This document shows, in pieces, positions 20,042 through 24,546 of a DNA stretch of 24,546 bases. A model generated the notes under the pieces. It saw only the letters and a program-made list of their open reading frames with translations, did no database searches and was not told where the DNA came from. The position numbers were made by a program, and so were the translations under genes. Source of the stretch: a virus. Numbering within the stretch: the stretch's first letter is position 1; every line of letters begins with the position of its first letter. The stretch lies in IMG/VR virus record IMGVR_UViG_3300042558_001485, positions 1 to 24,546 of that record; one strand, given 5' to 3'.

Positions 20042-21889
20042 TTAAACTAATGCAGTAACATTTACAATTGTACCGGCTACTAATCCACCGGTTCTAGTTG
20101 TTGTGGTATCGTCTTGGATTAATATTTCATTCCGGGATACTGATAGATTATAACTTGCCTCTTGTACGCTGCCGGTAATTCTAATGTCGGTGGTACCTGC
20201 AGGAAGACCCGTAGGTGTAATACTCGCTATGCTTACAATACCTGTACCGTAGCTTATAGTTCCAATGCTTGACAATAAAATAGCATCCGTTGTAGCATTA
20301 AGAATTCGCAAAGTACCAGTACCTGTATCACTTGAAGGTGTTGTGTCTGGCAGATCGGTTATTTTTACTAATGTTGTAACTCCGTTTATCGTTATAAAGA
20401 AGTAACTAGAAGTTAATGTACCAGGTTTAATAGCATTTCTAAACTTAATTGAAGTATCACCACTGAAGACGTTAACTGTGTTTAAAGTTGGTAATACTCT
20501 TCTTTGTAGCTTTACAGTTAACAATGCACTTGTAATAGAATTATTTTTAGATAAAATGGCATTAATTAACGATGAATGAATATAATTTTTATTAAATTTC
20601 TGTAAACTTGTAGAAAAATAATTTGTAATAGCTTCATTAACTTGAGCTTTAATTTGTTCTGAAGACAAAGTTGTAACTGAAGAGTTATAAATTACATCCG
20701 CATTTATACCTACATGGAAAAAGACTGGGTCTACAAATACAGGTGTAGTAGTGAGTGCTTGTTTGGATTTTAAAATATTAGTCGCAATAGATTCTTTTGT
20801 TGCATCAGAAATTGTAAACCCAGAGAACGGTTTGAGGGAAATTATTACTCTACCATAAAATGGAGGATCATTATCCTCACCACCCCATACCGATACAGAT
20901 TCTGCACCCGCATAATTAGATAAGATTAAAGACTCATAGTCAGTAGCTGTAACCGCTCTATTTTTAGATGCATTAACTCTTGGTGCATTAAATTTAATTG
21001 AGGTAATGCTTTCAGCATCTGCGCCACCTGTAGAGTTACTGTTAACGGTAATAGCAATACTACTCGAACCACCAATAGTAGTCCCGGCTGTAAAGGATTG
21101 AGATACAGTACTTGATACATTAACAGCTGAACCTGTAGCTACCATATATTGAATTGTAACAATGTTGCCAGCAGATAGGTTCTTACCTATAATTCCATCA
21201 CCAAAATATATTTGATATTTACCTTGTGGGTTTTGTTCCAGGAAATATACTTTTGATGTACTATCTAGACCGGTTATATCAGTAGTTAGTGAATATGTTG
21301 TAGTTGTAGTATCGGATGATGACGTCTGTACGCTTACTAGAATTGTAGTTGTATCAACAGCAGAATTTGGTATCTCATATTTACTGTTGGGTGTTGTATC
21401 TGATATAACATAGCTATAGTTTAATAATGTTCCTTCAGTTACATTAACATTTGCAAAAGTATATGTTGTACCCACTCTTAAAGCAGATTTTGCTTCAGTA
21501 GTTAAAAACGTGTATACTACCCCGTCGACGGTAGACGTGAATGGGGTGTAGCGATCCATGGTAAGGGATGCTGGAAGGTTAGTTGGATTAGTAACAACTA
21601 TATCTAAATTTGCAACAGACCCCCTTGAAGATACAGGTGTATATCCTAGGTGCTTAGCAATTGAAACTGCAGACGATCTTTTAACTGCAGAATCTAAAAA
21701 CATCTCATTAACTACCATATTTGCCAAATAAGCATTATAGTGGGTATTGTATGCAAGAACATCTAACAGGGTAGAAAGCCCAGACCCCTCAAAGTCATAG
21801 TCAGTGAACTCATTCTGAGCTTTCAAGAATGTTTTTAGGTTGGTCTTGATCTGATCAAAATCAAGTTCTGAAATTCTTAAGTTAGACAT
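20042..21889 (-). CDS. 6: Baseplate wedge subunit gp6, 615 aa
   Basis: The N-terminus contains LDFDQIKTNLKTFLKAQ, FEGSGLSTLLDVLAYNT, YLANMVVNEMFLDSAVKRSS and AVSIAKHLGYTP, the hallmark of T4 gp6 and the gpJ family of baseplate wedge proteins. About residues 305-345 (FNAPRVNASKNRAVTATDYE) also fit. gp6 forms the ring that joins the baseplate wedges and controls sheath contraction. T4 gp6 is 660 aa, so length is normal. The start overlaps the gp25 stop as TAATG, and gp25 and gp6 are usually adjacent in contractile phages. The C-terminal 110 residues are beta-rich and less conserved. Confidence 0.93.
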   Translation of the reverse strand: MSNLRISELDFDQIKTNLKTFLKAQNEFTDYDFEGSGLSTLLDVLAYNTHYNAYLANMVVNEMFLDSAVKRSSAVSIAKHLGYTPVSSRGSVANLDIVVTNPTNLPASLTMDRYTPFTSTVDGVVYTFLTTEAKSALRVGTTYTFANVNVTEGTLLNYSYVISDTTPNSKYEIPNSAVDTTTILVSVQTSSSDTTTTTYSLTTDITGLDSTSKVYFLEQNPQGKYQIYFGDGIIGKNLSAGNIVTIQYMVATGSAVNVSSTVSQSFTAGTTIGGSSSIAITVNSNSTGGADAESITSIKFNAPRVNASKNRAVTATDYESLILSNYAGAESVSVWGGEDNDPPFYGRVIISLKPFSGFTISDATKESIATNILKSKQALTTTPVFVDPVFFHVGINADVIYNSSVTTLSSEQIKAQVNEAITNYFSTSLQKFNKNYIHSSLINAILSKNNSITSALLTVKLQRRVLPTLNTVNVFSGDTSIKFRNAIKPGTLTSSYFFITINGVTTLVKITDLPDTTPSSDTGTGTLRILNATTDAILLSSIGTISYGTGIVSIASITPTGLPAGTTDIRITGSVQEASYNLSVSRNEILIQDDTTTTRTGGLVAGTIVNVTALV

Positions 21890-22284
21890 TATCTTACTCT
21901 TGTTAGTAGTGTTGTTAAAGTAATGGGTCTATCAGAGTTATTGAGTCTAAAAATTATGTCACAAACAACTTCATTATCATCTACTTTTTCTCGCAATTTA
22001 ACTTCCAATACTGTTACTCTCGGCTCGAACTTATCGATTGTATCAAGTATAGCCCTCTTCATAACCTGTGCAGTTACAGGATTAAAGTTTTCAAACAAGA
22101 GACCATGTATCTGACAGCCAATTTCAGGATGAAAGGGACGCTCATAATGTCTCGTAGAAATTAAATTTCTGAGAGATTGCTTAACAGCTTCCTCATTATT
22201 CTTTCTCGCAACATCACCAGTTACGGGGTGAGAAGAGAAAAGAAGATTAAAATCTGAATATTGTCTGGTATTTCGTGTAGCCAT
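21889..22284 (-). CDS. 25: Baseplate wedge subunit gp25, 131 aa
   Basis: The motif RPFHPEIGCQIHGLLFEN matches the T4 gp25 signature RPFDPEFGC....LFEN, and EPRVTVLEVKL follows in the expected place. gp25 is a small wedge protein at the sheath-baseplate contact, with relatives in type VI secretion (TssE). The frame can be extended to a TTG at 22314 that overlaps the PAAR gene, but the ATG at 22284 gives 131 aa against 132 aa in T4 and lies just outside the PAAR gene, so it is chosen. No strong ribosome binding site is seen for either. The stop overlaps the gp6 start. Confidence 0.93.
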   Translation of the reverse strand: MATRNTRQYSDFNLLFSSHPVTGDVARKNNEEAVKQSLRNLISTRHYERPFHPEIGCQIHGLLFENFNPVTAQVMKRAILDTIDKFEPRVTVLEVKLREKVDDNEVVCDIIFRLNNSDRPITLTTLLTRVR

Positions 22285-22303
22285 GTTTATATTTATGGTA
22301 GCG

Positions 22304-22612
22304 TCAGCTGGCAAATACCGTAGTTGAGCCCTGAGTTATCACATTATTCCCCATGGTATCTCCAATTCGCCCTATACCCTTACCGTCTACAAAAACTTGA
22401 CTTGATCCAGAATCCAGACTAGAATCATCATTAGAACATCCGGATTTTGGGTGCGGGGTAACTTTATTACCTTGAACTGTAATTAAGATACCGTTAGCAT
22501 ATACATTTTTGGAATTAGCTTCACCAACACTCGTCTGTAAAGGCATACGACATTTGTAACCAGATCCATCTGGAGATAGTACAGAATCGCCTAGTCTAGA
22601 TACAGCCGGCAT
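22304..22612 (-). CDS. PAAR-type spike tip protein, 102 aa
   Basis: The sequence is a PAAR domain from end to end: PAVSRLGDSV at the start, EANSKNVYANGILITVQGNK in the middle, TPHPKSGCSN, and VFVDGKGIGRIGDTM near the end. PAAR proteins form the conical tip bound to the beta-helix of the central spike; T4 gp5.4 is the phage counterpart. H54 and C59, and perhaps C21, are candidates for metal binding at the tip. Its place just downstream of the spike gene fits. A TTAGGACC ribosome binding site precedes the ATG, and the start follows the upstream stop with no gap (TAAATG). Confidence 0.93.
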   Translation of the reverse strand: MPAVSRLGDSVLSPDGSGYKCRMPLQTSVGEANSKNVYANGILITVQGNKVTPHPKSGCSNDDSSLDSGSSQVFVDGKGIGRIGDTMGNNVITQGSTTVFAS

Positions 22613-23182
22613 TTATGGTCCTAATTGTACTAGTGTACCTATATTGGTAACAGCTGTTTGATAATTCCAAACAACCCATTGCCCAATATTAGTTTGTAAT
22701 GTTACGTTTCCTGTCTCCCCGGGGCCTGTAACGCTGAATGCATATGCATTATTCTGGGTTACTGGGGTCGGCATTTCATATCGAACTAATGCTTTGAAAT
22801 CTTCAGTAGTAGTAGGAGGTAAAGCTTGAACTGTACCATCATCAAATACAAACTCATAATACTCACCATCAAAAGTACCTGAAAAAGTACCAGAAAGCCT
22901 AACTACATTACCTATAGAACTAACATTTATTCCTTTGGCAGCAAAATCATATAAAGCAGTTACCGATGTTGCAGGAGCTGAATTACTACCCTCAGGCATT
23001 ATCGGATATACAATATTAAACCCTATATCTATTGATATAGTTTGACCGCCGTATATCGTTGGTATATATCGATTTGGTGCAGGTGATTCCCCGTCATTAG
23101 TTAATTCGGTTGCAGGATCAGGGCTAATGGAAACAAAACCAATAGCATTTGAAGTATTTATTGTTACGAATTCATTCGCCAT
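22613..23182 (-). CDS. Unrecognised virion protein between spike and PAAR genes, 189 aa
   Basis: I do not recognise this family. The protein starts MANEFVTINTSNAIGFVSIS, has a proline-containing linker (PAPNRYIPTIYGG), and continues as mostly beta segments: TISIDIGFNIVYPIMP, VVRLSGTFSGTFDGEYYEFV, FKALVRYEMPTPV and VTLQTNIGQWVVWNYQT. No signal peptide or membrane segment is seen. Its start overlaps the spike stop as TAATG and its stop touches the PAAR start, so the three are probably made together. A role at the spike, for example as an adaptor or spike-associated baseplate protein, is inferred from this position. Confidence 0.7.
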   Translation of the reverse strand: MANEFVTINTSNAIGFVSISPDPATELTNDGESPAPNRYIPTIYGGQTISIDIGFNIVYPIMPEGSNSAPATSVTALYDFAAKGINVSSIGNVVRLSGTFSGTFDGEYYEFVFDDGTVQALPPTTTEDFKALVRYEMPTPVTQNNAYAFSVTGPGETGNVTLQTNIGQWVVWNYQTAVTNIGTLVQLGP

Positions 23183-24546
23183 TATGCCAACTGAGTTAAG
23201 CCTTGAGAATGGACAGCTTGATTAAAGAACGTTAAAAGTTGGCCTCTATTATTTGCAGCAAACCCTACGTGTATCCATGGAAGGCCTGACCCCGTAGACT
23301 TATACTCCAATAGTAGCTGATCATACTTAAGTACTTTTGCAAGCTTTAAAGCTATATTATAGTATTCTTTTTTATCGATGCCGGGAAATTGAATATCAAC
23401 CCCTTGCCCCTTAGGATGAGGTGATGTTACTGCATTAGATTTATTTCCTGCAGATCTAAATGCTGATGTAACTATCATATTAGGGTATAGCTTTTTAACA
23501 GGCTCTAAAACGTTTAGTGCAACAGCTTGAAGATTAAACACAATTTCACCGTAGGTTAATCCTAATTGAGCTTGTATTGGGTCTCGAGTTACTGCAGCTT
23601 TACTCGATAACATCTCAACTGTAAAGTTAGGAGATAAATTATAATTGCCTGGTAACTGAGTAACAGATTTTAATTTTTCATCTGGTTTAATAAATAGTTG
23701 CTGCTCAGAGGGCACGGATTTGCTTTCTGTACCAATTGGTTTTTCATCTAAAATTTCAGCAGTTGCAAAACCTTCTTTTATAAGTCTATTTTTATGCTCT
23801 AATTTTTCAGTTGGTGTATGTGTATCTACTTCTATTTCAATCGAAGACGTATCTGCAGGAGTAAGAACTGCAGGGTCAATTTTATCATTATCTGATATAT
23901 CTTTACGGCCAGTCATATTACCAATGTTAGAAATACCCGCAATAGTAGCAGGTTTACTGATTACAGAGGCTGCAGCCTCTCCTGCAGCTACAGAGTTGCC
24001 AGAATTAAGGTGTACAGCGCTACCGTCTGCTGCAAATTGACCAGCTGCTTTATTACTAATAACCCCTCCTGCCTGTTGTTTTATATCTGTTGTAGCTTTT
24101 GTATTAATACTAGCAAGTGATTGTGTATTAATATCTTGTTTTGCTTTAAGGTTAATTTTACTTTCGGATTCAACAAAAACACCATTACCGCCTTCGTTAG
24201 TCTTGATGTAAACATTACCAGATTGATTATAGATACTAGAGGTATTTTGATACAAGTCTACAGCACTTACAAATATATTGGCATTTGAAAGCATATTAAT
24301 ATCTACCGTCGCATGCAGGTTCAATGCAACGTTAGAACTTAAATTCATTAAATTATATGCTTGTATGTTAACATTGCTACTTGTAATATTAACTTCTTCG
24401 GTTGCAGAAAGGTTTAATTTACCCCCAGCCATGGCAGTAATATCGTTATGACATTTAAGGTTTACATCACCTTCGACCTCGATATTTGCATCATTACCAA
24501 CAAAGATATTACAAGCTCCATTAACAGAAATGTCTGCCCGACCTGC
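23182..24546 (-). CDS. 5: gp5-like central spike with C-terminal M15 peptidase, 3' part only
   Basis: The frame is open to the window edge, giving 454 codons; the internal ATG at 24432 is not the start, since the 38 codons before it (with IEVEGDVNLKCHNDIT) carry the same repeat. Counting from that Met, residues 1-125 and the preceding stretch are octapeptide-like repeats (VNIQ, LNLH, INML, INLK, INTQ, INTK), the triple-stranded beta-helix of T4 gp5-type spikes. A low-complexity linker follows (about 126-262). Residues 265-400 match peptidase M15: TSAFRSAGNKSNAV, then SPHPKGQGVDIQF (H339, D346), LLLEYKS (E376) and WIHVGF (H388), the expected zinc and catalytic residues. It probably cuts peptidoglycan cross-bridges during infection. 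The N-terminal part (OB-fold and any lysozyme) is outside the window. Confidence 0.88.
   Translation of the reverse strand, partial: AGRADISVNGACNIFVGNDANIEVEGDVNLKCHNDITAMAGGKLNLSATEEVNITSSNVNIQAYNLMNLSSNVALNLHATVDINMLSNANIFVSAVDLYQNTSSIYNQSGNVYIKTNEGGNGVFVESESKINLKAKQDINTQSLASINTKATTDIKQQAGGVISNKAAGQFAADGSAVHLNSGNSVAAGEAAASVISKPATIAGISNIGNMTGRKDISDNDKIDPAVLTPADTSSIEIEVDTHTPTEKLEHKNRLIKEGFATAEILDEKPIGTESKSVPSEQQLFIKPDEKLKSVTQLPGNYNLSPNFTVEMLSSKAAVTRDPIQAQLGLTYGEIVFNLQAVALNVLEPVKKLYPNMIVTSAFRSAGNKSNAVTSPHPKGQGVDIQFPGIDKKEYYNIALKLAKVLKYDQLLLEYKSTGSGLPWIHVGFAANNRGQLLTFFNQAVHSQGLTQLA

Follow-up and report, generated by a model that had tools for sequence, protein, structure and literature searches.

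The window, that is, the whole stretch of viral DNA analyzed here (24,546 nucleotides), carries the 3' part of a gp5-type spike gene, followed on the same strand by genes for a 189-residue protein, a PAAR tip protein and gp25- and gp6-type baseplate wedge proteins (Table 1). The spike frame (23182–24546, minus strand) is open from the contig edge through to its stop and encodes 454 residues, and because it stays open to the edge, the Met at 24432 is internal. The window has no 5' end of this gene of its own, and the initial annotation had proposed retrieving it. Two IMG/VR contigs (L007 and L008) encode a protein that equals that of the window across 454/454 residues and contain the upstream DNA, from which both the missing part and the upstream gene are known. 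The full-length spike protein in these contigs has 803 residues and starts 349 residues ahead of the first residue of the window.

Table 1 Features of the spike locus in the window (residues in window numbering)
Feature	Position	Strand	Basis
gp5-type spike gene, 3' part	23182–24546	-	454 residues; full 803 aa in identical contig, L007:4954-7365
Distal gp5 beta-helix, octapeptide repeats, residues 1–183	23998–24546	-	PHROG 430; lag-8 autocorrelation; Foldseek
Helix–peptidase linker	23656–23997	-	model, mostly low pLDDT; pN/pS 0.21–0.62, weakly constrained
M15-type (LAS) metallopeptidase domain, residues 298–454	23185–23655	-	PHROG 894; model; 1lbu match; pN/pS
Predicted metal ligand H377 (H339 from internal Met)	23416–23418	-	kept in 114/115
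Predicted metal ligand D384 (D346 from internal Met)	23395–23397	-	kept in 114/115
Predicted general base E414 (E376 from internal Met)	23305–23307	-	kept in 114/115; hedgehog alignment
Predicted metal ligand H426 (H388 from internal Met)	23269–23271	-	kept in 114/115
189-aa protein between spike and PAAR genes	22613–23182	-	no family match; absent in many relatives
PAAR tip protein, 102 aa	22304–22612	-	PF05488 4.3e-6 (above cut-off); PHROG 281 1.9e-17; NCBIfam NF033420 6e-9
gp25-type baseplate wedge protein	21889–22314	-	PF04965 3.6e-16
gp6-type baseplate wedge protein	20042–21889	-	PHROG 219 2.9e-160

The 803-residue protein begins with an alpha-helical N-domain, after which the gp5 helix opens with its antiparallel part and continues in octads as far as residue ~532; a linker and an M15 domain (residues 645–803) follow. 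A model of the whole protein finds T4-type gp5 as its best PDB matches (9f4a, 1k28 and 1wth), then other contractile-system spikes and then, via the M15 part, hedgehogs. Searched against the PDB as a single sequence, the window protein gave no match, and a profile was needed; an NCBIfam search of the spike proteins gave no M15 or gp5 match and one weak phosphatase match, which is probably spurious. The N-domain (approximately residues 1–205, L007:4954-5568) is confidently modeled, with pLDDT mostly 77–93, and is carried by the split lineage to which the window belongs; a search for relatives of these ~205 residues found none.

The PAAR gene lies two genes downstream of the spike gene in the same operon, where the initial annotation had placed it. 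The protein encoded between the two has no match in Pfam, PHROG or NCBIfam, and in many relatives this gene is missing and PAAR directly follows gp5. In some relatives, such as L011, the PAAR protein after gp5 has 81 residues with three short PAAR-like repeats, and in L048 no PAAR gene was found between gp5 and gp25.

Beta-helix and M15 domain

The repeat region had been read as a beta-helix from the sequence alone, and this reading held in three analyses: PHROG 430 (gp5) matches window residues 2–195 at 1.8e-9 and the helix part of the full protein at 4.5e-51, the lag-8 hydrophobic autocorrelation over residues 335–545 of the full protein is 0.36 (0 of 5,000 shuffles as high), and Foldseek matches the helix to T4 gp5 (1k28) at 1.5e-5. 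The helix of the window terminates in a GSAVHLNSG stretch. Unlike in the T4 gp5 family (PHROG 430) it is not the C-terminus, and approximately 270 more residues with the M15 domain lie behind it, beginning with a linker whose pLDDT is 43–59 across most of residues 531–590 in the full-protein model. Comparison of the window lineage with seven relatives gives a pN/pS of 0.38–0.65 in the distal helix and 0.02–0.31 in the M15 domain, the latter indicating strong constraint. The distal helix (residues 441–545 of protein P0003 and its relatives) is the fastest-changing part and differs in length among relatives, so that spike length appears to change. In one relative an in-frame TAA inside the gp5 helix (L014:2700-2880) separates helix from M15, and may reflect either a misassembly or a disrupted gene.

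The initial assignment of the C-terminal part to peptidase M15 was borne out by an HMM search, with PHROG 894 (endolysin) matching window residues 290–449 at 4e-16. Pfam Peptidase_M15_3 reaches 21.1 bits in the window against a curated cut-off of 23.2, exceeds the cut-off in relatives (L116, 28.0 bits; L111, 25.5 bits) and matches 74 of 115 aligned relatives at E<=0.01. A model of the domain alone, built with 115 sequences, has a mean pLDDT of 95.1 and a pTM of 0.89. Its best PDB match is the zinc DD-peptidase of Streptomyces albus G (1lbu, E 4.3e-4, TM 0.50), with hedgehogs next; among viral proteins the best matches are pf16 gp5 and others that UniProt names 'Peptidase M15A'. The metal motif HxxxxxxD ... 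WxH is present (H377, D384 and H426), and each of the three ligands, like the Glu, is conserved in 114 of the 115 aligned domains. The initial numbering of these four residues from the Met at 24432 was exact. Chance occurrence of an M15 motif was considered and is ruled out by the 115-domain alignment and the fold.

The domain shares the LAS fold with 1lbu and the hedgehog N-domain, and with hedgehog also the aligned metal ligands and Glu, but identity is only approximately 15–22% and the domain of the window is tethered to a phage spike. The profile alignment pairs H377, D384, E414 and H426 with the residues of Sonic hedgehog's zinc site. M15A/B enzymes usually have a Glu or Asp three residues ahead of the last ligand. 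In the window this close spacing is not seen: the position holds a Pro, and the conserved E414 sits twelve residues before the ligand. E414 would have to take over this role, as in hedgehog.

Two gp5-M15 proteins (L189:1481-4402 and L207:1572-4481) retain the fold family with the metal ligands replaced, in L189 by H to F, D to N and H to S substitutions. Going by these residues they are predicted natural pseudo-enzymes on a spike, and, since the fold is kept while the ligands are lost, the M15 domain can persist without catalysis. In L048:5782-7161 the equivalent of E414 is a His, and no second M15 of this type was found in this 163-kb contig. In bacterial contigs the M15 domain is also encoded by genes of its own.

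Split gp5 and an upstream muramidase

In the identical contigs the upstream gene encodes a Gp5_OB domain (4.9e-18) and then a T6SS_VgrG3-like_C domain (PF21277, 4.9e-52), of the family that includes the C-terminal domain of VgrG3, which is lysozyme-like in V. cholerae. The gene overlaps the 803-codon spike gene by one base, and an OB-VgrG3-like gene is directly upstream in every contig of the window's clade that covers this place. The lineage thus resembles T4 gp5/gp5.4 in having an OB domain, an enzyme ahead of the gp5 beta-helix and a PAAR gene nearby. It differs in that gp5 is split at gene level, between muramidase and helix, in that the muramidase, although placed as in T4 with the OB domain before it and the helix after it, is VgrG3-like and not GH24, and in that the second product carries the helical N-domain and an M15 domain behind the helix. 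T4 gp5 is a single chain that is cleaved between its lysozyme and helix parts during maturation. The OB domain, found in the window lineage on the adjacent upstream gene, is fused in L077 and L080, which with L132 (filed under a bacterial MAG) have the single-chain order OB-VgrG3-like-helix-M15; given these relatives, the two split gene products belong to one machine. The alpha-helical N-domain may re-join both halves of gp5.

The initial annotation implied that the peptidase took the place of the T4 enzyme and cut another peptidoglycan bond, and had named a lysozyme in the missing N-terminus as a finding that would make M15 redundant. This condition came true in part: a muramidase is encoded directly upstream, so the peptidase adds to it and is not a relocated replacement. 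By family, M15 would cut a different bond than the muramidase, and is therefore not simply redundant.

Domain order among relatives and M15 on PAAR proteins

The domain order proposed for the window, helix then M15, is found in all 152 of 152 proteins with both, a set that includes redundant contigs and was searched with HMMs built from these same proteins. When proteins were selected only by the start of the helix, 59 of the 76 with an intact 3' end had M15 behind the helix, a share that is not a census because the seed consisted mostly of M15-bearing proteins. Among the other 17, five have a separate M15 gene of the same type immediately behind gp5, in two the following gene encodes a VanY-type domain, and one each has GH24, CHAP plus GH19 or a different M15 after the helix; the remaining seven are short, with no enzyme seen. 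Proteins with such other enzymes behind the helix are L181:2453-4399 (GH24, 3.6e-12), L183:4479-7007 (CHAP plus GH19) and L218:1-1932 (a different M15, 7.8e-9), and this place thus takes several enzyme types. In L145, L198, L200, L201 and L211 M15 is a gene of its own immediately 3' of a gp5 without M15, and the gp5 proteins of L198 and L201 have approximately 1730 residues.

The enzyme before the helix varies: GH24 (L120, 7.6e-41), GH19 (L100, 1.4e-6), VgrG3-like, Phage_lysozyme2 (Cr30, 5.5e-29), VanY-type M15 (Melnitz) or none (pf16). Judged from these domain matches it appears to be exchanged freely among relatives. The order OB-GH24-helix-M15 (L120 and L144) amounts to T4 gp5 plus an added M15. 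Of 50,697 phage records, 1930 match the helix and 48 match the window protein, most of the latter via M15 on PAAR proteins or endolysins; the layout is therefore rare in isolates and common in the environmental set, and by its matches it is probably widespread among uncultured relatives of phage T4. The baseplate region of cyanophage S-CREM2 also looks split.

Fusions of PAAR with this same type of M15 occur in Vibrio phage 1.244.A, P. putida phage Aura, Pseudomonas phage Milchi and PA5oct. In the first three the PAAR-M15 gene adjoins baseplate genes, and for the PA5oct protein the record notes mass-spectrometric detection ('ESI-MS/MS'). The presence of M15 on either tip partner, gp5 helix or PAAR, is the best evidence for where it works. 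The initial claim of a cell-wall enzyme near the spike tip hence has indirect support, from topology and from the PAAR fusions of other phages. A 2021 survey found that most myovirus jumbo phages have a stand-alone PAAR, unfused to effectors (PMC7824862); PA5oct (287 kb) is an exception.

Comparison with known systems

A similar layout is found in Caulobacter phage Cr30, in which gp242 (YP_009098974.1) has OB, Phage_lysozyme2, helix and M15 in one chain, followed by a PAAR gene; unlike the window lineage it is unsplit, its muramidase is of another family, and its annotation says no more than 'baseplate hub subunit and tail lysozyme'. In gp208 of Pseudomonas phage pf16, M15 also comes after the helix (OB-helix-M15), but only OB and M15 were detected and no muramidase or glycosidase domain was found. 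Methylophilales phage Melnitz (gp154/gp155) shares M15 after the helix and a split, which falls after the OB domain, but a VanY-type M15 occupies the muramidase place.

The likeness to an evolved VgrG, noted initially, extends further than had been proposed. V. cholerae VgrG3 likewise has an enzyme domain behind a gp5-type helix, and the enzyme of the upstream gene in the window lineage belongs to the family of the VgrG3 C-terminus. However, the spike of the window lies in a phage baseplate operon with gp25 and gp6 and not in a T6SS cluster, profile searches found no gp27 part in the 803-residue protein, whereas an evolved VgrG has gp27 and gp5 in one chain, and no immunity gene was seen by the spike, unlike in evolved VgrG.

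Discussion

We consider it likely that the window lineage has a puncturing spike with two enzymes, a muramidase and a peptide cutter tethered at the tip, used in entry through the cell wall. This reading draws on the parts, their order, the gene split, the conservation of the metal-binding residues, the signs of purifying selection and the PAAR proteins of other phages that bear this M15, all taken from sequence comparison. The upstream gene would supply the OB domain and the VgrG3-like muramidase, corresponding to parts that T4 gp5 has in a single chain until it is cleaved. The window gene would supply the triple-stranded beta-helix with the helical N-domain ahead of it and, on a linker that extends from the tip end, an M15-type zinc peptidase, presumably in three copies around the tip, with the PAAR protein predicted to cap the helix. 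Sheath contraction would drive the PAAR-capped spike across the outer membrane, where the muramidase would cut glycan strands and M15, tethered beyond the helix end and if catalytic, would cut a bond predicted to lie in stem or cross-link peptides. Both enzymes together would free a patch of wall and open it for the tail tube, a use in entry rather than lysis.

That M15 merely replaces the T4 lysozyme, as the one enzyme of the spike moved behind the helix, is highly improbable: pf16 gp5, with OB, helix and M15 and no glycosidase domain found, would fit such a replacement, but the VgrG3-like muramidase is upstream in every window-lineage contig covering the place and many relatives have both enzymes. 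For the window lineage replacement is refuted by the upstream muramidase, and it is viable only for pf16-like phages. It is also unlikely that the domain is inactive here and kept mainly for structure or binding, as wall anchor, PAAR docking site or trimer registration. The L189 and L207 versions without ligands would agree with such a role, as would the report that C-terminal domains often assist the folding of fibrous trimers (PMC4576200), but the ligands and E414 are all intact here and nearly everywhere among the 115 domains, and M15 also stands free in bacterial contigs and beside gp5, with no helix to fold.

Release of M15 after assembly, with a main use as a late lysis enzyme, has very little probability in our view, even though the linker is of low model confidence, PHROG 894 is labeled endolysin and T4 gp5 is itself processed, going by the title of Kanamaru 1999 as cited in PMC4576200. 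Against it, the same module sits on the PAAR tip protein, detected by mass spectrometry in PA5oct according to its annotation, and the spike gene sits in a baseplate operon. Separate lysis enzymes are moreover reported for pf16, next to a gp5-like tail-associated lysozyme (PMC5587285), and for Melnitz (PMC9004378), which makes the gp5 enzyme dispensable as an endolysin in these phages. These considerations leave the two-enzyme entry spike as the preferred reading.

A search of open-licence papers found no description of gp5-M15 or PAAR-M15 in phages, which does not prove that none exists. The components are familiar ones, and their combination is present but unremarked in deposited genomes (Cr30, pf16 and Melnitz) and UniProt names. 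Two annotations are amended: pf16 gp208 is called a tail lysozyme, yet no lysozyme domain was found in it, and Melnitz is said to be without lysin-like genes besides gp67 (PMC9004378), yet both of its spike genes, gp154 and gp155, carry M15 domains. According to a review (PMC6116005), virion endopeptidases are found nearly exclusively in phages that infect Gram-positive bacteria. Cr30, pf16 and Melnitz infect Gram-negative hosts and, provided that the enzyme is active, would be counter-examples.

The usual view of tail lysozymes in contractile phages is that each spike has a single glycosidase. Here glycan and peptide cutting would be combined, with the first enzyme site freely exchanged, the second conserved, and the tip enzyme carried in three ways. 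We lean slightly towards a general arrangement in T4-like phages of uncultured bacteria, in which the spike would have two stations, an exchangeable glycan cutter near its base and a conserved peptide cutter at its tip, the latter movable among the gp5 C-terminus, PAAR and an adjacent gene. If true, this would contradict both the view of jumbo-phage PAAR proteins as unfused (PMC7824862) and the confinement of virion endopeptidases to phages of Gram-positive hosts (PMC6116005). It would be the phage counterpart of T6SS effector mounting, resembling the way in which effectors are loaded onto VgrG and PAAR, and it makes testable why some phages must cut peptide cross-links at entry.
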